DNA from: a virus
Direction: 5' to 3' (one strand)
IMG/VR virus record: IMGVR_UViG_3300037507_002457
Span: 1 to 64,000 of that record
Length of the DNA: 64,000 nucleotides
The notes below the pieces were generated by a model, which worked only from the letters and a program-made list of their open reading frames with translations, did no database searches and was not told the origin of the DNA. Position 1 is the stretch's first letter. Every line of letters starts with the position of its first letter. The translations under genes were made by a program, and so were the position numbers. Shown here piece by piece: positions 1,849 to 43,087 of the stretch.

Positions 1849-2160
1849 ATGAATATATCATGGCAATATAACAACTTCAATGTGTATAACACATATAATG
1901 GTTTAAACGATGTAGTTTATAGTTACGGTTATGTTGTAACTGCTACGGATAGCGCTTCTTCAGCATCCAATGTGGGTATAGTACGACTCGTACTAGGTGA
2001 ATTAAATTCTATAGTACCTTTTAATCAACTTACACAACAAATTGTACAAGGTTGGACCGAACAATTTCTTGATACGCAAAAAATAACAGACAATCTTATT
2101 GAACAAGTAATTGCTTCAACGGCACAAACCACACAAGGATTGCCAGCACCTTGGAATTAA
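1849..2160 (+). CDS. Small virion-region protein, unknown function
   Basis: The 103-residue product begins MNISWQYNNFNVYNTYNG and continues with a beta-rich half (VVYSYGYVVTATDSASS) and a helical C-terminal half with many Gln. It lies between fibre genes and the tail sheath, 12 nt after the adhesin stop. A structural or chaperone role is possible, but no family is recognised. No signal peptide, cysteine motif or membrane segment is seen. Confidence 0.5.
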   Translation: MNISWQYNNFNVYNTYNGLNDVVYSYGYVVTATDSASSASNVGIVRLVLGELNSIVPFNQLTQQIVQGWTEQFLDTQKITDNLIEQVIASTAQTTQGLPAPWN

Positions 2161-2221
2161 AATACTTGATTTTTTATACAAAATTCTGTATATATACATA
2201 TATAAACCGTTATAAAACATT

Positions 2222-2512
2222 ATGGAACTAAATACACCAAACATACAACAGCCTGCATCACTTGAGCAAAAAATATTTGATGCAGTAGAAATACAAGAAC
2301 TAACTGCTATTCGCGAAGCATATGAACAAGCTACTATTTCGCTTGGTCAATTAGAAATGCAAAAGCGTGAAATAGCCAAAACAGAAAAGCGACTTAATGA
2401 ACGATTGGCTGCTATAGAAGCCCAAGAAAAAGTATTTTTGGATAAGATCGTAGCCAAGTATGGCGAAGGTACGTTTGATATTAATACAGGCGCATTTACG
2501 CCAAGATCGTAA
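2222..2512 (+). CDS. Small coiled-coil protein upstream of the tail sheath
   Basis: The 96-residue product is largely charged helix (about residues 15-78) with heptad-like spacing, for example EMQKREIAKTEKRLNERLAA. It ends in a short non-helical tail (YGEGTFDINTGAFTP). A rho-independent terminator follows 29 nt after the stop, so this gene ends its own transcript before the sheath gene. The function is not recognised; a small tail or fibre accessory protein is inferred from position only. Confidence 0.5.
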   Translation: MELNTPNIQQPASLEQKIFDAVEIQELTAIREAYEQATISLGQLEMQKREIAKTEKRLNERLAAIEAQEKVFLDKIVAKYGEGTFDINTGAFTPRS

Positions 2513-2540
2513 TAATAGTTATATTTATTATAATACCCAA

Positions 2541-2569
2541 AATCCTCCATATTAGTGGAGGATTTTTTA
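2541..2569 (+). terminator. Rho-independent terminator
   Basis: Perfect 8-bp stem AATCCTCC/GGAGGATT, 8-nt loop, followed by a T run. Separates the coiled-coil gene from the tail sheath gene. Confidence 0.85.
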
Positions 2570-2590
2570 TTGTTTGAAAAATTAGTGTCA

Positions 2591-2598
2591 TATTTATA
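2591..2598 (+). promoter_or_regulatory. Late-type promoter box TATTTATA
   Basis: CATATTTATATT element between the terminator and the sheath gene, 32 nt before ATG 2631. The spacing leaves room for a Shine-Dalgarno sequence (ATAGGAG at about 2614-2620). Confidence 0.5.
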
Positions 2599-2630
2599 TT
2601 TACAACTTTTTATATAGGAGTTAAAAAACT

Positions 2631-5600
2631 ATGGCAATCGAACAAAATGGAACATATAGCCCTTCAGAACGAATCGTTTCGCCTGGTGTATTCACCAGAG
2701 AAGTAGATCAATCGTTTCTTGCACAGGGCGTAGCAGCAATCGGCGGCGTGGTAGTAGCCCCATTCCCAAAAGGACCGGGATTTTCACCAACCGTAATTAA
2801 CAGCGAAGGTGATTTAAGCACCATCTTCGGTGATGCGGACGGCACACTATACGGCCCAATCACAGCCCAGCAATATCTTCGTCAGCAAGGACAAGTCACA
2901 GTTGTCCGCGTTGGCGGTCTTTCTGGATACAATCAACAGAAAGCATTGTTTGTCACAGCTACACCTGGTCAATATGGACGCTTTCAAGAAAATTCGGTAG
3001 TTTCTGGTTCTCTACTTGACGCAACATTATATCCAAATTCTGCGGCAAATAGCGTATTCAAAATTACTGGTAGCGTTAGCGTAACATTTGATAGCGGTTT
3101 CTATGAGGATGAAACCATCGAAGTTGGTACACTACAAGTTGCTACATTTGCAAGCTCTTCAACAAACCTATACGGAGCAGTTACTGCTTCCGATGGTTGC
3201 TTGGATTACTTCTTTGCCACAGCTTCTGCGACAAATACCTCATTCACTATTTCTGGCGATGCTCCTTGGAACGGTTCAAGATTGTCTTCATTGACAATCC
3301 GCCGCATACCAGGTGCTTGCGATTTTGAACTTGAAATTGAAGGTGTATTAACTGGCTCATATGGTGCGTTCAATCCAAACGCATTTACTCCAGGTGTTGG
3401 ATTGACCGAGGATGGGTGTGGAAGTTCTTCTTATGCCACCGGAAGTGATAGCGTATTGTTGGCCGTATTGGCAAATACCGCATATGATCGCAGTCAGAAT
3501 CTATATGGATTCAGCGGATCTTTGCTATCAACATCGTCGGTCGTTTCTGTCACCGCCGATTTCTCGTTGGCGTTAAACACTATCTATACAGATGGAAGCG
3601 GAAATACGGCAAGTTCTTCTTATGGTACATATCAGTTCTCATTGGACGAAGAATCAAACAAATATATTACAAACGTGTTTGGTACTGATCCAAAAGCTGG
3701 TTATGTTCCTGTTGCTGCTGGTCAAAAGATTGAAGCAGCATACACATACAAAAACTTCAAACATCGTACCAAAACAATTATAAATCAAATGCTTGCTTCT
3801 GGTAGCTGGAAGATTGCTATTTTTTCTCGCGACGCAATGGATTTTGAAGATGGTATTGAGCCAGCAGATGGAACTTCCGCATTTGATCTCACAAATGCAT
3901 ATACTCCGTTCATTCGCTCACAGCTAATTGCTGCCTTTACTGGTAGCGGAGTGTCTTCGAGTGCTGCATATGATCTATTCAAGGTACATACTCTGACAGA
4001 TGGCACCGCTGCAAATACAGCATATAAACTTGAAATATCAAACGTAAAGTCACCTGGTTCTGTACCTGGCACCTCGTATGGTTCATTCACGTTGGCGGTT
4101 CGCAGCTATAGTGATACAGACCTAAAGCCTGTATATCTAGAACGTTTTGATAATCTAAACTTGGATGTCAATAGTGCAAATTATGTTGCTCGTCGTATTG
4201 GTGACACATACAACTATATCGACTTCAACGGTAAGATTCTGGAATTTGGAGACTTCCCACAAAAGAGCAAATATGTTCGTGTTGAAATGGCAACTGCTCC
4301 ATGGCCAGTTGACGCAATTCCATATGGATTTGGTCCATATGCCACACCAGTCGGCGGTGATTATGCTCGTTTGGGCAAGATTCCTGCGATGCAATACTGC
4401 TCTGCCTCGGCGTACTTGTTACAGCCAGGTAGATATGCTTCTGGTGTAGTATTCCAACCAGCACCAGCACAAGCAGACGCGGATCTTGCTGCTCTATATC
4501 CAAATGGATCTAGCGTCGGTCCAGAACTAGACAATAAGCAATACTTCGCTCCAGTACCACAAGGTTCTGCGGTAGGAGCTAATGTTGCGTTTGACCTAGA
4601 AACATATTGCGGAGTTTCTCCATTGTATGTTGCTTCTCAAGAAAATACAAATGTTAAGAAGCGTCGTTTTGTTCTAGGATTCCAAGGTGGATTTGATGGT
4701 CAATCGCCATCTGTTCCAGTATTAATTGGTAATGATATATTGCCAACAAATCAACAGGGACTAGATTGCTCTACGTCAACAAGTCGTGGTACATATGCTT
4801 ATAGACAATCAATTGCTGCTTTAAGCAATGCGGATGAGTTTGATTTCAACCTCATCACTGTTCCCGGCATTAACTACGAAGACCACGCATATGTAGCAAC
4901 TTCAATCGTTGATATGTGCGAACGTCGTGGCGACGCATTCTATATCATGGACATTGCTCCAAATCAAACAGCCGGTGCAACTGCTATTCAAAACGTAGTA
5001 GATCTGGCCGGTCAGTTTGATACAAACTATGCTGCAACATATTATCCTTGGGTCAAAGTTACTGAGACCAATAGTAACAAGATCATGAACGTTCCTCCTT
5101 CAGTAGTAATGATGGGCGTCTATGCCGCCAACGATAAAGTTGCCGCTGAGTGGTTTGCCCCAGCAGGTCTAAATCGAGGCGGTATCCCAACGGCTGTGTC
5201 TGTAGCAGATAGATTGACACACACTGAACGTGATACTCTATATGAAGGTCACGTAAACCCAATCGCCGCGTTTCCTGGTCAAGGCGTTGTGGCTTGGGGT
5301 CAGAAGACACTGCAACGTAATCCAAGTGCATTGGATCGCGTAAATGTTCGCCGTCTATTGATCGCGTTGAAGAAGTTCATCGCTTCTTCTTCAAGATTCC
5401 TAGTGTTTGAACAGAACGTAGCAACAACTCGTCAACGTTTCTTGAACATCGTCAATCCATACTTGGAAAGCGTACAGCAGCGTTCGGGTGTGTATGCCTT
5501 CAAGGTTGTTATGGACGACAGCAACAATACACCTGATCTAGTTGATCGTGGCATATTGTATGGTCAGATCTATATTCAGCCAACACGTACCGCTGAAATG

Positions 5601-5706: not shown

Positions 5707-5742
5707 TATAGCAAGATTTCATCATTTTGCCTACCGGTTCAT

Positions 5743-5757
5743 ATATTTATATTTATA
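5743..5757 (+). promoter_or_regulatory. Tandem late-type boxes ATATTTATATTTATA
   Basis: Two overlapping ATATTTATA copies (5743-5751 and 5749-5757) immediately before the homing endonuclease start. The first copy is 5 nt from ATG 5757. Confidence 0.45.
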
Positions 5758-6554
5758 TGAAAACAAATTATGGAAACCCAATGTCAATAAATAAAATTTG
5801 CGAATGGACCGGTAAATCTTTTACTGTTGATTGGAAGCACAGAAATAAAAGATTCATAGATACAAAAGCAATGTATGCTTGGAGAAAATCGCAAAATCAC
5901 GAAATTGTAAATTGCTTAAATTGCAATAAACCGTTTGACAGATATAAAAGAATACTACACCCAAGATCTGGAAAATTGCAGCAATATTGCTCAAATGAAT
6001 GTAACAGAAGTTCAAAAGAAAAGAGAGAAAAACTTAAAATTTGGATAAATGACAACAATCCTATGAAAGATCCAATCTCGGTTGAGAAAATATCAAAAAC
6101 CAAACTAGAAAAATACGGAAATTATAAATACAACAACCCAGAAAAAGCTGCAAATACTTGTATGAAAAAATACGGAACCGCGTGCTATTTTGATAGCCCT
6201 TCTGCTATATTATCAAACGGAAAACGCATATCAAAGTTTCAAAAACAAACGTATGATCTTGTTTTATTAAAATATCCAGATGCAGTTCTTGAAAAATATC
6301 TAAAAGACGTTCATTGTTCTGTGGACATTTATATACCTTCGATCAAAAAAGTAATTGAGTGCTATGGGGATTATTGGCATTGCAATCCTAAAAAATACAA
6401 ATCAGATTATTATAATAAATCTTTGCGCATGACAGCAAAAGAAAAATGGGACAAAGATGCCATTAAAACAAATAAGTTAATGTCGGTCGGTTACGATGTC
6501 GAGATAGTTTGGGAAAACTCAAAGAAAAAACTTGTGCATTCAACAAAACCGTGA
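5757..6554 (+). CDS. Homing endonuclease, Vsr/EDxHD-like, with zinc finger
   Basis: The roughly 265-residue protein has an N-terminal Cys-rich zinc-finger-like segment (VNCLNCNKPFDRYK ... QQYCSNEC). Repeated MKDP/KYG-type motifs typical of free-standing phage endonucleases follow, then a C-terminal PD-(D/E)xK-type nuclease core (DVHCSVDIYIPSIKKVIECY, then GDYWHCNPKKY and IVWENSKKKL). By family knowledge this cuts a cognate site lacking the gene and drives gene conversion. ATG 5757 touches the promoter box; ATG 5781, preceded by TATGGAAACCCA, is an alternative start. It sits alone between the sheath terminator and the HAD gene. Confidence 0.75.
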   Translation: MKTNYGNPMSINKICEWTGKSFTVDWKHRNKRFIDTKAMYAWRKSQNHEIVNCLNCNKPFDRYKRILHPRSGKLQQYCSNECNRSSKEKREKLKIWINDNNPMKDPISVEKISKTKLEKYGNYKYNNPEKAANTCMKKYGTACYFDSPSAILSNGKRISKFQKQTYDLVLLKYPDAVLEKYLKDVHCSVDIYIPSIKKVIECYGDYWHCNPKKYKSDYYNKSLRMTAKEKWDKDAIKTNKLMSVGYDVEIVWENSKKKLVHSTKP

Positions 6555-8310: not shown

Positions 8311-9000
8311 ATGCTAAAGAATATCAAGTTTGCCCGGTTTGGTGGGCTTAGTTCAGTCAATCAAAAGGGATATGATTCGAACTGTGATGGCTATCATTCT
8401 CCTCCCGCCAAGCGTGGCTTTTATGCGTTTCTTTGGCCGTATTATGAGTTCTTTCTTCTCAGCGGTGGATTATGGACAAACTATCCTTGGTCAATAGGCA
8501 CCAAGTTCATTTACTTAAAAGACGCCAAGGGTAATATCATTGACGAAAATCATCCTGATCATGAATACTTTTCCAGCACAGGAAAGTATTGGAGCATTCC
8601 CACCAAAGAATGGTATTTTCATCATAAGAAACATCCTGAATATGAAGACCCCGAATATGATGCTAAGTTGGAGGCACATTGTATTGATTGGGAAACAAAT
8701 CACGGAGATAAGCCCAAGTGGGTGTTGGCTCAAAAGCCTTCGCCCAGAATCTTTGAGTACAAAGGAAATATCTGGCATCATTTGACCTGCTATCTCGGAC
8801 CTTCTGGTGCACTGAAGCAGAAAGGTGGTTGGACTCTTTCGCCATTTGACGAATACGCAAAAGCATTACAAAAAAACATGCACGCTGGTCGCAGGACACA
8901 GTGCGAATACAATTCCAACAAAGGACTACCGAAGTCCAACAAAAATCCTTATGTGGGAATATCCAAAGATCATCTGGAAGTTTTTATTGAGAAGTTGTAG
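8311..9000 (+). CDS. Conserved-looking soluble protein, unknown function
   Basis: The 229-residue protein is rich in Trp, Tyr, His and Pro, with segments such as GYDSNCDGYHSPPAKRGFYA (about residues 20-39) and IWHHLTCYLGPSGALKQKGG. The composition is that of a compact globular enzyme-like domain rather than a structural protein, but I do not recognise the family. It has its own sigma70-like promoter. Its 3' end overlaps the converging homing endonuclease gene by 17 nt. Confidence 0.6.
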   Translation: MLKNIKFARFGGLSSVNQKGYDSNCDGYHSPPAKRGFYAFLWPYYEFFLLSGGLWTNYPWSIGTKFIYLKDAKGNIIDENHPDHEYFSSTGKYWSIPTKEWYFHHKKHPEYEDPEYDAKLEAHCIDWETNHGDKPKWVLAQKPSPRIFEYKGNIWHHLTCYLGPSGALKQKGGWTLSPFDEYAKALQKNMHAGRRTQCEYNSNKGLPKSNKNPYVGISKDHLEVFIEKL

Positions 9001-10513
9001 AGCTTCTCCATATCCATTTTGTATGACCGCAATCCCATATACGGTCAAATCCGTTCAGTTTCATATTTTCCCATTCAGATAAGTTGGGATCAAATGTTTT
9101 TAACTTTTTTGCCAGTTTAGATTTTTGGAACATCTGTCGGTTGAATACTGTACTAAAGTCGGGAGATACATAATGATAACCTTGTGCTGTATTTCCTTCA
9201 AAGGTCATTCCTAGCTTAGAATACAAGTCTCCAGAGAACAATCTGCGGTCAGAGTAGCTTACTACGCTCTTTGGCTTATAATCCAATAGGAATATACTAA
9301 ACAACTTTGTTGCTCCACCGTGCACACGAGTATTCAACGCATTGCAGAACCTTGATATTTCCCATTCAACTTTTCGGTCAAATCTACTTCTACAAAACGT
9401 CATTATGCTGACCAAGGAGTTTTTATAGTATAAGCCATATGCGACAGATGATTTGTCCTCACCTTGCATATGACACTTGTTCAAGAACTCATTCTTTTCT
9501 TTGGTGTCTACTTTTCGTATTTCGCATTCTCGTCCGTGGATCTTGGCAACGTGCCCGCCAACATACTGACGTATGATTGACTTTACAATATTCTGCTTAT
9601 GCTTCCATTCGCTTTCAAGTATATGAATGAGGTGTATATTTTTCTCGGCACACTTCTCAGTCTTTTCCAGATGATAGTTTTTTGACATTCTGGGATGGCT
9701 GGCTCTGTGCCAATACAACCCGTTATATTCTATAGCGAACGAAAGATCGGGGATGTAAAAATCAAGCTCCTTGCCATCCAACACAACTCTATTATTTCGT
9801 AGTATAGTTTTACCCTTTACTTCAGACACCAAGAACTCTTGCAAACCAGTTTCTGCGGTTTCTTTCTTTTCAGGATGGCATAGTTCACAGAACACATCTG
9901 TTGGCACATATACTGTAGACTCGAATCCATTATTACATTTTTTACAATTAAACTTGTATCTATGCGAGAAATGATAGCCCGCATAGTCCTCTTGTTTGCA
10001 TAACCACTTTACATTTTGCGAATTAAACAGAGTTTTTAGTTTTTCATAATGGTTCTCTTGTTTGAGTTTACTTCGTTTTTGTATAACATCTCTAGATTTG
10101 CCGGGATTGTCCACACCGTACTTTTCAATCCAAGTTTCCATTATCCGCTGTCTTACAGGACTTTTTGACGACAATACATTTTCTACACCATAGTTTTGTA
10201 CATTGGTATATTTGGCTTTATCAAGTATAGCTTTTGATTGCAATGCGTGTTCTACACCATATTTGGTCATCATAGAGTTCTTGAAATTATTTACAACTTC
10301 AGAAGTCTTCATAGGATGATCCGTGCCGTACTTTTTTAGTGAGGTTTCTACCTGCGACGCTCGCATTTTTGCTAACACTTCTGGGTCTTTGTTAGAACAA
10401 GATTTACAGCAATACTTCTGCTTGTTTCGTTTCTGCCATTTCACTCTGAAATCTGTATTGCAAGTTTTACATTTTAGCTCTACAAAGTCTGGGTTTTTCT
10501 TGGGTCTGGCCAT
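8984..10513 (-). CDS. Large homing endonuclease with KYG repeats and Vsr-like nuclease core
   Basis: The 509-residue protein has an N-terminal zinc finger (CKTCNTDFRVKW ... CCKSC). It is followed by four KYG(V/T)(D/E)(H/N)-type repeats (about residues 55-145), a second Cys cluster (FNCKKCNNGF, VFCELCHPEK) and a PD-(D/E)xK nuclease core (ELDFYIPDLSFAIEYNGLYW, then HRASHP). The C-terminal part (residues about 320-500) resembles a GNAT-like or DNA-binding module common in T4-type free-standing endonucleases. It is the only minus-strand gene in the first 58 kb and lies just upstream of the tail tube gene, a typical site for such intruders. Confidence 0.8.
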   Translation of the reverse strand: MARPKKNPDFVELKCKTCNTDFRVKWQKRNKQKYCCKSCSNKDPEVLAKMRASQVETSLKKYGTDHPMKTSEVVNNFKNSMMTKYGVEHALQSKAILDKAKYTNVQNYGVENVLSSKSPVRQRIMETWIEKYGVDNPGKSRDVIQKRSKLKQENHYEKLKTLFNSQNVKWLCKQEDYAGYHFSHRYKFNCKKCNNGFESTVYVPTDVFCELCHPEKKETAETGLQEFLVSEVKGKTILRNNRVVLDGKELDFYIPDLSFAIEYNGLYWHRASHPRMSKNYHLEKTEKCAEKNIHLIHILESEWKHKQNIVKSIIRQYVGGHVAKIHGRECEIRKVDTKEKNEFLNKCHMQGEDKSSVAYGLYYKNSLVSIMTFCRSRFDRKVEWEISRFCNALNTRVHGGATKLFSIFLLDYKPKSVVSYSDRRLFSGDLYSKLGMTFEGNTAQGYHYVSPDFSTVFNRQMFQKSKLAKKLKTFDPNLSEWENMKLNGFDRIWDCGHTKWIWRSSTTSQ

Positions 10514-31867: not shown

Positions 31868-32806
31868 ATGAAAAATCAAACATTTATTCCGAGCGATCAA
31901 TTAATTACATCATTATATGAGGAGTTCAAACGAGACGATACTATTATTAGTATGATGGCATTAAGAAAAAAAAACAATTTCGGTTCTAAGACGGGAAGAA
32001 AGGTTCAGTTGGCTATTTACAAAAAGTATGGAGAAAACAATATAAAGAAAATATGCTTGAGTAGGTGTGGAAAAAGTAGAAGAGCAAAATCTAAAGGAAC
32101 CTACAAACCATCGCCAGAAACAATACAAAAAAGAGCTAAAGCAATAAAGCAATCGTATATCAATGATCCAAAACTTATAGAATTGAGAAGAAAAAACGCA
32201 TACAATACGATAGTGGGAAGGAAACAGACGGACGAAGAAAAAGAAAAACGTGCCAATTTGTTGCGAGGAAAAAAAAGGAGTCAAGAAACGAAACTTCGCA
32301 TGTCTTTGGCGAAAAAAGGAATTCCTCTGTCAGAAAAGCATAGAAATAGTCTAATAGGAATATCCAGAAAGAAAGTAAATAGAAGTTATCCGAGAAGCGA
32401 AGAAACAAAAAAGAAGTTATCTATCATAGCAAAACAACAATGGAAAGATGGTATTCATACACCGACATATAGGTCAAAAGGTCAAATGGAGATGGAATAC
32501 ATTATTAAAACGATGGGGTATAACGTCGAACCCGAATTTATAATAAATGGACGACCATACGATACTTATATACCCGCAAAAAATCTGTTGGTGGAATATA
32601 ATGGAACATATTGGCACAGAGATCCTCGTTTCTACAAAATTACGGAAGAAGTAAAGTTAATACACCGGAAAGATGCCGAAAAAATAAACTTGGCAAAATC
32701 CCACGGATATGATATAGTAGTTGTTTGGCAACACGACTGGGAAAGTTGCGTGGATAAAAAACAATATCTTAAAGATATTTTAAACAAACATGGAAAACAA
32801 ATATAA
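31868..32806 (+). CDS. Homing endonuclease with NUMOD3-like repeats and Vsr-like core
   Basis: The 312-residue basic protein has NUMOD3-type DNA-binding repeats (KRSQETKLRMSLAKKGIPLS, PLSEKHRNSLIGISRKK, RSEETKKKLSIIAKQQWKDG; residues about 135-195). A PD-(D/E)xK-like nuclease core follows (YDTYIPAKNLLVEYNGTYWH, then IVVVWQHDWE). It is inserted between the UvsX region and RNase H, and its last codons overlap the RNase H start by 17 nt. The late-type box at the start resembles the T4 practice of late expression of such genes. Confidence 0.8.
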   Translation: MKNQTFIPSDQLITSLYEEFKRDDTIISMMALRKKNNFGSKTGRKVQLAIYKKYGENNIKKICLSRCGKSRRAKSKGTYKPSPETIQKRAKAIKQSYINDPKLIELRRKNAYNTIVGRKQTDEEKEKRANLLRGKKRSQETKLRMSLAKKGIPLSEKHRNSLIGISRKKVNRSYPRSEETKKKLSIIAKQQWKDGIHTPTYRSKGQMEMEYIIKTMGYNVEPEFIINGRPYDTYIPAKNLLVEYNGTYWHRDPRFYKITEEVKLIHRKDAEKINLAKSHGYDIVVVWQHDWESCVDKKQYLKDILNKHGKQI

Positions 32807-38107: not shown

Positions 38108-38815
38108 ATGAATCGTGAACTTCTAAAAAAAGCCATCAAAAAGTTAGTATTGCAAGAAATCACCAACAATCAGTTTGGTACACCTATTCAATCAGATAAG
38201 AAGGATTTGACTGGCGAAGAAGCACTAACCAAGGCAATGGGCAAGGACGCCAACGTAATGAAAATCCGTGGCACAGGAAAAACCGCAGGAATGAAAGGCA
38301 ACCAAGAAGTTCAACTAAGCAAAAACTGCGATCATTGCTATGACGTTGTGTCTATTACAAATGAATCTGAAAGAAAGATTGCTCGTGGTATTTCTCTTGA
38401 AGCAGCAATGGAACTTGTAAAACAACATGCTGAAAGTTCAGATAAGACATATGTCCAAAAAGCATATGATAAGAGTCTAAAAGGATTTGGTAAGAAGCCA
38501 TCCGAAAAAGAAGAAGCCAATGAAGCCGACAAGATGGATGATGCCGATGAAGAAACTCAAGTTGAAATAGCAGATGATACTACGGTAAAGGCGGAAGAGA
38601 AAGTAGATAAAGAAAATGCTCCTATCAACAAAGACGTTGCTCCAGCCCTCGGCGGAAGCATCGTTGACAAGATTGAAAAGATTGTAGATAAGGTATTGAA
38701 AGATAAAGCAGACGCCAAATCCGCATATCTAAAACACGATAAAAGCACAGAAAGCCCAGACAAGCTATCTGTAAAACTAAAAGACACTCCTGCTCTAAAA
38801 GAAAAGAAAGCATAA
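38108..38815 (+). CDS. Tagged, charged low-complexity protein
   Basis: The 235-residue protein starts MNRELLKKAIKKLVLQEI (recurrent peptide). A small region with CDHCYDVVSITNES (about 75-90) follows, then a long Lys/Glu/Asp/Ala-rich C-terminal half. The hexapeptide EADKMD occurs near residue 140 and also in the modular protein at 12480 (residues 88-93). The shared tag and shared motif suggest the two proteins go through the same pathway. A head-internal role is inferred. Confidence 0.55.
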   Translation: MNRELLKKAIKKLVLQEITNNQFGTPIQSDKKDLTGEEALTKAMGKDANVMKIRGTGKTAGMKGNQEVQLSKNCDHCYDVVSITNESERKIARGISLEAAMELVKQHAESSDKTYVQKAYDKSLKGFGKKPSEKEEANEADKMDDADEETQVEIADDTTVKAEEKVDKENAPINKDVAPALGGSIVDKIEKIVDKVLKDKADAKSAYLKHDKSTESPDKLSVKLKDTPALKEKKA

Positions 38816-38816
38816 T

Positions 38817-39248
38817 ATGAAACAAAAAAGCATAATCAACGACACATTTGAAAAGCACAAAAAATTGGTGCTTGAGCATTTGAACGAAAAACGCAGAGTT
38901 CCTGCAAGCGTAGATACAACATTTGATACGATGGTAGACATAGATCCAAAGAAACTAGGAAAAAATTTACCTGAACAAATAGAAGTCAATGTTGAAGTAT
39001 ACGCCGAAGGAGAATATGCCGATGCGAGCTTTGACCATGAATTTGGAACACATGATCCGGGAAGTGGATACGAAATAACTAAGGTTATAGTAACTGCAAA
39101 AGAAGATACATATGTGTTTGATGCAGAAGGAAATCAAACAAGCGAGATATTATTTAATGCTGGAGACACTATAGATCAAAAATCCATAGTATCTAACATA
39201 GACGACGAGATTTATGAAAAGCTCGCTGGCGCTGGAAGCGATTATTGA
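38817..39248 (+). CDS. Protein with TFEKHKKLVLE N-terminal tag
   Basis: The 143-residue protein begins MKQKSIINDTFEKHKKLVLE, which shares an 11-residue stretch with the N-terminus of the protein at 57755. The remainder is acidic and beta-rich (DIDPKKLGKNLPEQIEVNVE, ITKVIVTAKEDTYVFDAEGN). It starts 1 nt after the preceding stop and ends at a strong terminator. Function unknown. Confidence 0.55.
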   Translation: MKQKSIINDTFEKHKKLVLEHLNEKRRVPASVDTTFDTMVDIDPKKLGKNLPEQIEVNVEVYAEGEYADASFDHEFGTHDPGSGYEITKVIVTAKEDTYVFDAEGNQTSEILFNAGDTIDQKSIVSNIDDEIYEKLAGAGSDY

Positions 39249-39275
39249 TAAGTCTTAATAATCAACAACTTAAAG

Positions 39276-39302
39276 ACCCCACACAAAAATGTGGGGTTTT
39301 TT
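39276..39302 (+). terminator. Rho-independent terminator
   Basis: Stem ACCCCACA/TGTGGGGT with 6-nt loop and T run; separates the tagged genes from the CobS-like unit. Confidence 0.9.
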
Positions 39303-39303
39303 A

Positions 39304-39332
39304 TTGACTTCATATAAAAAGTGTACCATAGT
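39304..39332 (+). promoter_or_regulatory. Sigma70-like promoter, near-leaderless
   Basis: TTGACT (39304-39309), 17-bp spacer, CATAGT (39327-39332), ATG 8 nt later at 39341. Confidence 0.6.
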
Positions 39333-39340
39333 ACATACAT

Positions 39341-39640
39341 ATGAATAAGACCAAAAAGAATATGCCCACCGACACCAAGACGTTTATCGACCAGTCTGCT
39401 GACATCAAGCCCAGCAAGCTATATATGAAGGATATCAAGTGGAAGTATCTTGTTCGCAGTGCTCTGCGTGGCAAGAATATTCTTATTGTTGGTCCAACAG
39501 GACATGGGAAAACCTTCGCGGTCCAATGCTTGGTTGAAGCCCTTTCTGAAACTATTGAAGAAGAGGTTACGGAAGAACGCCTTAACGAACTCAAGGCTAC
39601 AGAAAATATCACTATTATAAAAACAGAAGAACTAAAATAA
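39341..39640 (+). CDS. CobS/MoxR-like AAA+ ATPase, N-terminal part of split gene
   Basis: The 99-residue product contains a basic N-terminus, a helix (KDIKWKYLVRSALRGKNILI) and Walker A GPTGHGKT (51-58), then ends after a Glu-rich helix (SETIEEEVTEERLNELKATE) and the strand NITIIKTEELK. Walker B, sensor 1 and the arginine finger are missing here and are found in the next plus-strand frame but one (40254-41021). The gene is interrupted by a GIY-YIG endonuclease gene. Whether the two parts assemble into an active ATPase cannot be told from sequence; split but functional phage enzymes with inserted endonuclease genes are known. Confidence 0.75.
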   Translation: MNKTKKNMPTDTKTFIDQSADIKPSKLYMKDIKWKYLVRSALRGKNILIVGPTGHGKTFAVQCLVEALSETIEEEVTEERLNELKATENITIIKTEELK

Positions 39641-39664
39641 TGGCGTGGAATATTCTACTGACTT

Positions 39665-39673
39665 ATATTTATA
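39665..39673 (+). promoter_or_regulatory. Late-type promoter box ATATTTATA
   Basis: Exact copy 6 nt before the GIY-YIG gene, inside the broken ATPase gene. Confidence 0.45.
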
Positions 39674-39679
39674 TATGTC

Positions 39680-40285
39680 ATGATAATATACAAAACTACT
39701 AATATTCTTAATGGAAACTATTACATCGGAAAAGACAGCAGAAACAACCCACATTATTACGGGTCTGGACTTGCTCTTAAATCCGCGATAAAAAAATACG
39801 GCAAAAATAACTTCGTAAAAGAAACTCTGGAAGTTGTGGTGGGTAAAGATTTATCAAACCTATTGGAACGAGAGATATACTGGATTGATAAATACAATGC
39901 GATAAATGACCAAAACTCATACAATTTACAAAGAAACAGTGGTTTACGACCAAAGATAGTCACCAAAGAAGAAACACGAAAAAAAATAAGCCGAGCAGTT
40001 AAGCGAGCATTTAAAAACGAAGAATATAGAAAAAAAATAACAGAACACAATCAAGGAGAGTCAAATCCAATGTTCGGAAAATCTCAATCCGAATATCAAA
40101 AAAAACGAGCAAGTGAAGCAAATAAAGGAAAAGTTTATTCAAAAAAGACAAGACAAAAAATTAGTGATGCAAGAAAAGGAAAATCATTCTTGACAAAAGA
40201 AGGTAAAAAAAATATTGCAGAAGCAACAAAAAAAAGATGGGAAATATATCGTCGTGAAAAACAAAACATACAAAGTAACTTATAA
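39680..40285 (+). CDS. GIY-YIG homing endonuclease with NUMOD3-like repeats
   Basis: The 201-residue protein has the GIY-YIG signature in the form MIIYKTTN ... NGNYYIGKDS (residues 1-20), the catalytic Glu in LEREIYWIDKY (near 65), and NUMOD3-type repeats in the C-terminal half (NPMFGKSQSEYQKKRASEAN, YSKKTRQKISDARKGKS). It is inserted into the CobS-like ATPase gene and its last codons overlap the start of the second ATPase part. It has its own late-type box, as for I-TevI in T4. Confidence 0.85.
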   Translation: MIIYKTTNILNGNYYIGKDSRNNPHYYGSGLALKSAIKKYGKNNFVKETLEVVVGKDLSNLLEREIYWIDKYNAINDQNSYNLQRNSGLRPKIVTKEETRKKISRAVKRAFKNEEYRKKITEHNQGESNPMFGKSQSEYQKKRASEANKGKVYSKKTRQKISDARKGKSFLTKEGKKNIAEATKKRWEIYRREKQNIQSNL

Positions 40286-41021
40286 GAAACATCGGCCATT
40301 TATGGCCATTAACCTTGGGAGTACGCAAGATGCCCGAGCTACGCTAATTGGAAATACTCAATTCTCCAAAGAAACTGGGACATTCTTCCAAGAATCTCCA
40401 TTTGTGAAGGCCATCTCTACACCGAATTCAATTATTCTACTCGACGAGTTGAGCAGAGCCCATCCCGACGCTATGAATATTTTAATGCCAGTGCTCGACA
40501 ATCAAAAGTATTTGCGACTGGACGAATCGGGTGGAAAAGTTGTGAGAGTTGCTGATGGGGTATGTTTTATCGCAACCACCAACATTGGCAACGAATATAC
40601 CGCTACCCGCGTGATGGACAAGGCTTTACTTGATCGTTTCACCGTCAAGATTGAGGTTGATATTCTTTCGCAGAATACAGAGATGGAACTCATCAAGACC
40701 CACTGCCCCGATGCCAATATGAACACCATGCTGGCGGTTACGGAAATTGCTGCTGCTACCCGCGAGTTTGCTTCTCAGGGCAAGTTGAGTAAGTTCATTT
40801 CTACTCGTAGCGTCAAGGAAATGGCCGAACTTACCGTCGATGGATTCAACCTCACAGAACTTGCTGATATGGTTATTTATCCCGATTATCCGGATGATGG
40901 TGGACTTGATTCCGAACGTACTCTGGTAAAGCAGGTTGTGCAAAAGTATATCAGCACCGAGACCAACAACAATCTTTATACCGCTACCGCCAATACTCCT
41001 GACGGCAGCACCCCCTTCTAA
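40254..41021 (+). CDS. CobS/MoxR-like AAA+ ATPase, C-terminal part of split gene
   Basis: The 255-residue product has the conserved RPFMAINLGSTQDARATLIG segment, Walker B SIILLDELSRAHPDAMN, sensor 1 VCFIATTNIGNEY, and ALLDRFTVKIEVD with the arginine finger. It belongs to the CobS/MoxR clade of AAA+ ATPases, whose rings work with VWA-domain partners. The start is uncertain: GTG 40254 keeps the KTYKVTYKKHRPF strand, TTG 40215 lies inside the endonuclease gene and ATG 40302 trims the strand. It ends 2 nt before the CobT-like VWA gene. Confidence 0.75.
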   Translation: MKNKTYKVTYKKHRPFMAINLGSTQDARATLIGNTQFSKETGTFFQESPFVKAISTPNSIILLDELSRAHPDAMNILMPVLDNQKYLRLDESGGKVVRVADGVCFIATTNIGNEYTATRVMDKALLDRFTVKIEVDILSQNTEMELIKTHCPDANMNTMLAVTEIAAATREFASQGKLSKFISTRSVKEMAELTVDGFNLTELADMVIYPDYPDDGGLDSERTLVKQVVQKYISTETNNNLYTATANTPDGSTPF

Positions 41022-41023
41022 TA

Positions 41024-43087
41024 ATGAAAAAGAAATACGCAGAGTATTCCAAGTTCTGGCTTGGTGAGGACTTTTCTAAAGAAAAGTTGGATGTAGATAC
41101 TACATACGGACTTATCAAGTTGTCTGAGTACCGCCGTGCGGTCAGTAATTTTGTGTATATTCTTACCGGCAAGAACATTCCTGTTCGTTTTGCAGAAAAG
41201 AGTACGTCAATGACTGATGGCAAGGTTGTGTATATTGGAGGCGAAATCTCCAAGGGTGAGTTTGATCCTACCGTTGGTATTGCTCTACACGAAGCCGCTC
41301 ACATCGTAAAGTCTGACTTTTCTCTTATCAAGACGCTGTGGGGCAAGGTTCCCAATAATCTTGTCAAATCCGCCAACGGTTTGATGAACCACAACGATAT
41401 TGGCGAACTTTGTAAGTATATTCTCAACGTCGTTGAAGATAGATACATTGATGCTTGGGCATATCAGATTGCTCCTGGCTATCGTGGTTATTATCACGCC
41501 TTGTATGATAGATATTTCAATCTTCCTGAGATTGGTCAGGCTATTCAGTCTGACAACTATCGTACTCCTACTCTTAGCAATTATAAGTTTCATTTTACAA
41601 ACCTTGTAAATAAGAACTACGATCCAGATGCTTTGCCTGGTCTTCGCAAGATTACGGAGATGCTGGATGTTAAGAACATTCTTAGAAATGAACTTTCTAC
41701 TGCTGTGAGCAGGCGAGATCTTTCTATGGAGATCGTCGAAGAGATTATCAAGAATGTGATTGATGGTCACAATAACTCCAATTCTTCTCAAAAGAATAGC
41801 ACCAAGTCAGAAGACGGTGATGATTCTTCTTCTGATTTCCTTGGCGGAACCGAGGATTCGGTGGATAGTATTCCAGATTCCGATGATTCGGGGGACGGCG
41901 ATGACGCTAATGGCGAAGACGACTCGGATGATGCCGACAATACTGGCGATGGAGACAAAGAGGATACGGATAATGAAAAGTCCGATAAGCCTGCCAAGGC
42001 AGAGAAAAAAGTTTTGACCGATAAGAAGATGGCTGCTATTGAAAAAATTATCAAGAAGCAAGAGTCTTTTATCAACAGAACCGCTGCTGTGTCTCCTTTC
42101 AAGAGCAAGGTTATCAGTAAGTTGAATACACTTGAAAAGAGTGGCGTCAATATCGAAGTCGTTGGCGGAGAAGATGGTATTCCTCCCGTTGAGTGTATCG
42201 TTGTTACTAATCTTACAAAGGAACTTATGAACTCCAACGAGTTTCCGTATACCAACGGCTATACGTCCTTACAAGAAAATATGATGGGGACTCGCGGAGT
42301 GCGTAGTGGAATTGCTATTGGTACAATGCTTGGTCGCCGCCTACAAATCCGAAACGAAGTCAAGACTACAAAGTTTACCCGACAGGATAGTGGTAGAATT
42401 GACAAGCGACTGATTGCTTCTATTGGCTATCAGAACGAAAACCTGTTCTATCAGACCAGCGTAGATAAGTACAAGAATGTTCATCTACATATTTCTGTTG
42501 ATGCCTCTAGTTCAATGAGCAGCAAGTGGGAAAACACAATCTCTACCCTCGTCGCTATTGCCAAGGCTGCTAGTATGATCAACAACGTCTCTGTATCTAT
42601 TTCTTTTAGAAGTGGAGTCAGACTAAGCACCAGACAAAGTGAACTTCCTTATGTGGTAATCGCATATGATTCCAGAAAAGACAATTTTACCAAGATCACC
42701 AGCCTATTCCCGCTTCTTTTTCCTTCGGGTTCTACTCCAGAAGGTCTGGCGTTTCAGGCTATTCTGGAGCATATTCCGCAATCTACATATGAATCTGACT
42801 CGTACTTTGTGAATATTTCCGACGGTGAGCCTGCGTTCAATATTGGCAATATTGTTTATGTTGATACAATTGCATCCAACCATACACGCAAGCAAGTTCG
42901 CAAGATGATGGAGAAGGGCACAGAAGTAATCAGTTATTATGTTGAAGCGGATAAATATAATACGGATAATAATGTAAAGAATTTCAAGAGCATGTACGGC
43001 AAAGATTCGCATTTCATTGATGTAAAGAATGTTGTGCAGATTGCTCATACGCTCAACAAGAAGTTTTTGTCTAAAGCAACTGCCTAA
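41024..43087 (+). CDS. CobT-like VWA protein with HExxH motif
   Basis: The 687-residue protein has an N-terminal domain with HEAAH (residues 89-93) in GIALHEAAHIVKSDF and a downstream VVEDRYID (Glu138), the arrangement of a zinc-metallopeptidase-like site. A very acidic Asp/Ser-rich linker follows (about 262-320), and a C-terminal VWA domain has the MIDAS DASSSMSS (Asp493, Ser495, Ser497). It follows the CobS-like gene after 2 nt. In CobS-CobT and MoxR-VWA pairs the ATPase remodels a target bound through the VWA protein. T4-like cyanophages carry cobS, but its role is uncertain. The metallopeptidase-like motif suggests proteolysis, which is untested. Confidence 0.75.
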   Translation: MKKKYAEYSKFWLGEDFSKEKLDVDTTYGLIKLSEYRRAVSNFVYILTGKNIPVRFAEKSTSMTDGKVVYIGGEISKGEFDPTVGIALHEAAHIVKSDFSLIKTLWGKVPNNLVKSANGLMNHNDIGELCKYILNVVEDRYIDAWAYQIAPGYRGYYHALYDRYFNLPEIGQAIQSDNYRTPTLSNYKFHFTNLVNKNYDPDALPGLRKITEMLDVKNILRNELSTAVSRRDLSMEIVEEIIKNVIDGHNNSNSSQKNSTKSEDGDDSSSDFLGGTEDSVDSIPDSDDSGDGDDANGEDDSDDADNTGDGDKEDTDNEKSDKPAKAEKKVLTDKKMAAIEKIIKKQESFINRTAAVSPFKSKVISKLNTLEKSGVNIEVVGGEDGIPPVECIVVTNLTKELMNSNEFPYTNGYTSLQENMMGTRGVRSGIAIGTMLGRRLQIRNEVKTTKFTRQDSGRIDKRLIASIGYQNENLFYQTSVDKYKNVHLHISVDASSSMSSKWENTISTLVAIAKAASMINNVSVSISFRSGVRLSTRQSELPYVVIAYDSRKDNFTKITSLFPLLFPSGSTPEGLAFQAILEHIPQSTYESDSYFVNISDGEPAFNIGNIVYVDTIASNHTRKQVRKMMEKGTEVISYYVEADKYNTDNNVKNFKSMYGKDSHFIDVKNVVQIAHTLNKKFLSKATA

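Follow-up and report, generated by a model that had tools for sequence, protein, structure and literature searches.

The DNA analysed here, hereafter the window, comprises positions 1 to 64,000 (64,000 nucleotides, nt) of the 68-kb IMG/VR virus contig IMGVR_UViG_3300037507_002457, and holds a MoxR/CobS-type AAA+ ATPase gene that is interrupted by a GIY-YIG homing endonuclease gene. Our analysis, which is sequence-based throughout, makes it likely that a mobile homing cassette splits this ATPase and also provides the strands that re-assemble its two chains. The proposed cassette consists of the codons for a tail on the first chain (N-tail), a stop codon, the endonuclease gene, a start codon and the codons for a tail on the second chain (C-tail), and would have been inserted between helix α1 and strand β2 of the ATPase. 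In the proposed mechanism, the endonuclease would cut uninterrupted alleles of co-infecting phages, with repair copying the cassette plus flanking exon DNA, as seen in the sequence footprint. The ATPase would be made as two chains, the first with Walker A and the second with Walker B, sensor 1 and the arginine finger. At the break point, the tail of chain 1 (acidic, strand-helix-strand) and that of chain 2 (basic, a strand) are predicted to pair in a small mixed sheet, and the paired tails may hold the halves as one AAA+ protomer that works with the neighbouring VWA-type protein. The insertion would be tolerated via protein re-assembly, without RNA or protein splicing.

The locus contains three open reading frames (ORFs) on the + strand: 39341-39640, 39680-40285 and a frame open up to 41021. 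The first encodes 99 amino acids (aa) including a Walker A motif (GPTGHGKT), while the last, when begun at the GTG at 40254, encodes a C part of 255 aa with Walker B, sensor 1 and the arginine finger. A previous sequence-only reading had assigned the motifs to the two products in this way, and the ORF listing agrees. It had also described a GIY-YIG gene between the parts, about 40 bp from the first and overlapping the second. The endonuclease ATG is indeed found 39 nt past the N-part stop, and the C-part GTG is located inside the endonuclease 3' end, 31 nt ahead of the end of the endonuclease stop codon. The product of this middle gene (39680..40285, +) contains NUMOD3 motifs (Pfam, 1e-7) and is a homing endonuclease according to PHROGs (5e-30); its Pfam GIY-YIG score of 17.8 bits is under the cut-off of 22.6, which is passed by the homologue in lineage L109. 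A dN/dS (nonsynonymous to synonymous rate ratio) of ~0.09 between the window gene and its L034 homologue indicates that the endonuclease is under selection.

The body of the first chain (39341..39547, +) corresponds to the N-terminal segment, β1, Walker A and helix α1 of a MoxR/CobS-type AAA+ ATPase. The second-chain body (40290..41021, +) contributes β2, Walker B (IILLDELSR), sensor 1, the arginine finger and the sensor 2/lid region. The C part is recognised as AAA_5 by Pfam (7e-12) and as the CobS-type ATPase phrog_249 by PHROGs (2e-24). Comparison with the PDB gives Midasin, CobS, CbbQ and NorQ as sequence relatives, and the top fold matches of a read-through model of the L109 protein (see below) are NorQ and CbbQ. 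The assignment to the MoxR/CobS type is based on the presence of Walker A, Walker B, sensor 1 and the arginine finger together with the MoxR-like fold. A variant Walker A (GPSGCAKT or GPTGCAKT, with Ala replacing the Gly before Lys) was observed in the split L216 and in the intact L178, L127 and L132.

The extent of the insertion is defined by intact alleles in near-isogenic genomes (L009 and L211), found when related phages with an uninterrupted gene were sought and the junction aligned, a check that the sequence-only reading had proposed. L009 is an 81-kb contig that is 92-97% identical to the window on both sides and carries a single uninterrupted 315-aa ATPase ORF. Its alignment with the window shows the insert to begin within the first ORF, whose final ~30 codons are foreign to the ATPase; the C part likewise opens with ~12 foreign codons. 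The first-chain body is 90-93% identical to L009 at the nt level, excepting its last ~20 codons, and the GC content of the foreign codons and the endonuclease gene is 31-32%, compared to 45-46% for the ATPase bodies. The 99-residue product had been taken as an ATPase part, which applies to the Walker A portion, whereas its last ~30 residues are an insertion-specific tail.

To place the locus in context, viral contigs in IMG/VR were scanned with both ATPase parts, using peptide-pattern scans that are not exhaustive. At least nine distinct split lineages were found: the window group, L034, L106, L203/205/206/207, L108, L109/110, L144, L216 and L278. Contigs of the same group from different samples are not independent, and metagenome contigs may conceal assembly errors; the frameshifted L023 was excluded. 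The window arrangement is the same on at least eight further contigs of its group (L004-L008, L011, L012 and L015). Because it recurs on these contigs and in eight other diverged lineages, the split in the window is not a sequencing error. All nine lineages are broken between helix α1 and strand β2 of the AAA+ core, at the same residue. In a set of 111 distinct homologues with an uninterrupted gene, 27-29 residues invariably separate the P-loop from GxTQDxR, and none of these proteins carries the tails (0/111). Given this fixed spacing, tails and splitting always go together.

The N-tail (39548..39640, +; ETIEEEVTEERLNELKATENITIIKTEELK followed by the stop) has the form ..EVxxEEVTEEQLNxLKxDPxIxIxKIEEx-stop (~30 residues) in all nine lineages, and the C-tail (40254..40289, +; (M)KNKTYKVTYKK from the GTG start) the form M(K)xKYKVTYKK (~10 residues), with both start position and tail retained. 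The tails of the first eight lineages align nearly gap-free, L278 being the ninth. In a comparison of 29 N-tail codons across these eight lineages, column entropy at codon positions 1/2/3 was 0.86/0.67/1.30 (permutation p<5e-5), the median dN/dS was 0.26 (14 finite pairs), and the other frames contain stops. By these measures the N-tail is translated and selected as protein. The charges of the tails are opposite in 9/9 lineages, with the N-tail at -2 to -7 and the C-tail at +2 to +6. Hidden Markov models of the tails, run over all fetched endonuclease loci, located them only at this ATPase gene, as did two tail-alignment scans of viral contigs among the matches listed. A tblastn search of 50,697 phage records with the tail consensus gave zero matches, and genome contigs gave just three distant matches. 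A general tail module shared with other genes, which was also considered, is therefore unsupported, the scans having located tails only at this ATPase gene.

The coding character of the N-tail bears directly on whether the endonuclease gene is instead housed by a group I intron that has degenerated beyond recognition by Rfam, in which case the spliced exons would yield a single ATPase chain. GIY-YIG genes are frequent in group I introns, and by eye the joining of codon 68 (..GAAGCCCTT) to AAACATCGGCCA gives an in-frame ATPase-like sequence. The coding constraint on the N-tail nevertheless continues up to the stop (protein-level conservation covers the first ~90 nt of the insert), and splicing would not require such conservation; the N-tail is therefore translated and not intronic. 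Furthermore, Rfam is blank at E<=5 over 39300-40500 in the window and at the gathering threshold in seven other split loci, the ~39 nt ahead of the endonuclease are all of the insert that is left outside ORFs, and the filler in L106 is an antisense gene. We consider an intron improbable. The sequence-only reading had reached the same conclusion by arguing that there is no space for a group I intron core. The conclusion stands on the evidence above, while the spacing argument is weak alone because the true start of the insert lies ~90 nt further upstream, within the first ORF.

The N and C parts of L109 lie in one frame, and the corresponding read-through protein was folded using AlphaFold2 (AF2), with stops as Gly and the chains of the other lineages as alignment. 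In the resulting model the 264-residue filler is disordered, while both tails are ordered. The N-tail is predicted to form strands at residues 71-79 and 92-100 and a helix at 80-88, with a predicted local distance difference test score (pLDDT) of ~83; the C-tail forms a strand (371-379, pLDDT ~85) with the N part present. In contrast, folding the L109 C part by itself leaves its first 10 residues without a strand and at a pLDDT of 34. The models suggest that the N-tail strands likely form a sheet at the break that the C-tail strand completes. From this contrast, the conserved motifs and the selected tails, we infer that the two chains assemble and that the ATPase is active.

Short tails at a break flanking an endonuclease gene could also be the halves of a split intein that trans-splices the ATPase; precedents exist among fractured phage genes that carry split inteins and have their two pieces separated by an endonuclease gene (Dassa et al. 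2009, cited in PMC3653736). The tails however sum to only ~40 residues, as opposed to ~130 for an intein, the first tail residue is S, T, E, K or A with no conserved nucleophile, and both a terminal Asn and a Cys, Ser or Thr +1 residue are absent. This makes the split intein the most remote of the alternatives considered here.

Movement of the cassette between lineages is evident from abrupt changes in nt identity around the junction. To its right, identity falls from 90-98% to 55-78% across ~100 codons (window versus L009; L106/L203 versus L211), and in each comparison the right breakpoint is the conserved sensor-1 stretch. To the left, the drop extends over at most ~20 codons and in L106 this side barely changes. 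Between the window and L012/L015, 1,221 bp are identical (39434-40654) while both flanks are ~4-5% diverged; inside this zero-difference stretch, the segment from about 39470 to 40593 diverges from the resident L009 allele and constitutes a putative co-conversion tract. Phylogenies of the two regions conflict. In a tree of the tract (junction to sensor 1), the window, L034, L106 and L203 form one clade (99/94), whereas in the distal-part tree L034 groups with the intact L125, the window sequence with L009, and both L106 and L203 with L211. The distal tree rejects the grouping of window, L034, L106 and L203 (log-likelihood difference 268, approximately unbiased test p=0.003), and on the whole-body tree the split label requires five changes, each forced by supported branches. 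These conflicting trees, together with the near-isogenic intact genomes, indicate that homing with co-conversion transferred the tails and the endonuclease from lineage to lineage along with ~300 nt of the exon downstream, at least as judged by the sequence footprint. We infer that the endonuclease drives this movement, and likewise where it cuts. Such marks of homing with co-conversion are known for T4-type endonucleases (PMC2988022). L012 and L015, which carry the same cassette, have ~1 kb of different DNA (1964-3008) in place of window 38806-39261, just upstream of the ATPase.

The filler between the tails has itself been exchanged. In L106, the place between the tails is taken by another GIY-YIG gene (3160-3921; PF22945, 27.0 bits, at the cut-off), which runs on the opposite strand, while the distal ATPase and the flanks match L203 and the intact L211. 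L278 has an additional 76-codon ORF (3872-4099) between the endonuclease and the C part. Hence, the split and the tails outlive or tolerate changed filler.

This variation is also difficult to reconcile with ribosome bypass, frameshifting or read-through, by which both parts would be fused in one protein with the tails as an internal insertion. The L109 parts happen to share one frame, and the ribosome is known to bypass 50 nt in phage T4 gene 60. The frame relation between the N and C parts nonetheless varies by lineage (0, +1 or +2), and the gap to be crossed is ~600-1,000 nt, stop-rich (27 stops in L109) and filled in L106 by the antisense gene. Fusion by the ribosome is thus very improbable, more so than an intron. 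The best-supported reading remains two separately translated chains, as the sequence-only reading had suggested by analogy with the NrdA of Aeromonas phage Aeh1; the isogenic intact alleles, the lack of a detectable intron, the conserved tail codons and the antisense gene of L106 all favour it. The present reading goes beyond that earlier account, which mentioned neither the tails nor any horizontal movement of the cassette.

Several observations weigh against re-assembly by the tails. The cassette tract of the window group is identical in every carrier, giving no selection signal for that phage, selection on the N-tail having been measured across lineages. Shine-Dalgarno sequences at the C-part start codons are weak or absent. 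The AF2 pairing derives from a single artificial L109 read-through chain with only 17 alignment rows, the tail-tail contact is deduced from secondary structure assignment (DSSP) and confidence, and the isolated fold covers the L109 C part only, the N part having been modelled solely within the read-through chain. The insertion could alternatively have inactivated the ATPase, its fragments being decaying passengers of a recent homing sweep. The window-group cassette is recent, its carriers all identical, and hence there has been no time for decay. In nine lineages with deeply diverged bodies, on the other hand, both chains are intact and retain Walker A/B, sensor 1 and the arginine finger, the tails are selected, and the neighbouring partner gene is intact beside the split ATPase in the loci examined. 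We therefore regard a broken gene as unlikely, even if it is the least improbable of the alternatives, and favour a two-chain ATPase.

The neighbouring gene (41024..43087, +) adjoins the ATPase in split and intact relatives and is CobT/NorD-like. By eye, it contains an invariant DxSxS (DASSS) metal ion-dependent adhesion site motif in the alignment, yet zero VWA profile matches were obtained (Pfam, PDB profile search). NorQ and CbbQ are MoxR ATPases that act with VWA partners.

An TATTTATA box (39666..39673, +) is located 6 nt 5' of the endonuclease start. The late-type box that the sequence-only reading had placed before the endonuclease is thus present, although it reads as the reverse complement of the T4 late consensus. 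The + strand of the window holds 18 copies of TATTTATA versus 3 of TATAAATA (21 combined, versus 7.5 expected), and 10/18 copies of TATTTATA are 4-38 nt 5' of an ORF start; examples are found at 2591, 16420, 19763, 26349, 38079, 39666 and 57723. Its recurrence upstream of this phage's ORFs makes it a probable late-promoter motif. An TGGAATAT-type noncoding block directly follows the N-part stop (window 39641-39679), with equivalents in L034, L203, L108, L109, L144 and L216. It is conserved in most same-strand split loci, with L108 a variant, and possibly controls endonuclease expression. Other endonuclease-like genes in the window are 5727-6554 (Vsr-like end by eye), 8984-10513 (- strand; DUF7487) and 31868-32806 (weak NUMOD3).

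Endonuclease-split genes have hitherto been regarded as rare one-off accidents. A split at one site in nine lineages, mobile and carrying its own assembly tails, would instead point to a heritable strategy, one that places Walker A and Walker B of a single P-loop site on different polypeptides. On balance, we favour the view that a non-splicing 'split-and-staple' cassette constitutes a third way for a homing endonuclease to reside within essential coding sequence, beside self-splicing introns and inteins. Its coding ends would specify complementary protein strands, such that with each homing event the recipient's enzyme changes from one chain to two and still works, and the staple would outlive replacement of the endonuclease. 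If true, the tails would be a natural collection of staples for split proteins that are short, non-covalent and complementary in charge, and the locus would offer a testable model for two-subunit enzymes arising from parasitic insertion.

Endonuclease splitting without splicing is already known from Aeh1 nrdA, and Crona et al. reportedly described element-derived interaction tails in Aeh1 NrdA in 2011. New here are the AAA+ enzyme with Walker A/B on separate chains, the other endonuclease family, the homologous tails in nine lineages, the transfer of a whole cassette with co-conversion and one endonuclease exchange. In Aeh1, nrdA-A / mobE / nrdA-B encode a functional two-chain enzyme (PMC2988022, PMC3653736), and a 2023 paper mentions 'at least one instance' of endonuclease-split genes, Aeh1 NrdA (PMC10448857). 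As in the window, an endonuclease gene splits a conserved enzyme gene, the gap is short (46 nt) and the second half begins in the endonuclease 3' end (overlap 14 nt). The break tails of NrdA-A/NrdA-B are likewise charge-complementary (+6, -10), but with reversed polarity and unrelated sequences. The Aeh1 endonuclease is HNH rather than GIY-YIG, its host gene encodes a ribonucleotide reductase rather than an AAA+ protein, and it was reported as the insertion of a single phage, in contrast to the nine lineages, the signs of repeated horizontal transfer and the one cargo exchange seen here. Aeromonas phage 25 gene 43 (seg-like endonuclease) and the T4 topoisomerase genes 39/60 (mobA) are endonuclease-associated splits treated as cases similar to Aeh1 nrdA (PMC2988022, PMC3653736). 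Their chains co-purify or form active enzyme, the order of splitting and invasion in phage 25 is unclear, and, unlike in the window, no shared tails or cassette transfer are described (PMC2988022). In the genes fractured by split inteins (Dassa et al. 2009), an endonuclease gene also separates the halves, which are however rejoined by protein trans-splicing. The td / I-TevI group I introns share with the window a GIY-YIG enzyme, NUMOD3-type DNA-binding motifs and homing with co-conversion of flanking exons, whereas the window is without a detectable intron core and the 5' part of its insert is coding and selected. Finally, the NorQ-NorD, CbbQ-CbbO and CobS-CobT pairs include the best fold and sequence relatives of the ATPase, and the window neighbour has the DxSxS motif; in contrast to the two chains proposed here, NorQ, CbbQ and CobS are single-chain ATPases.
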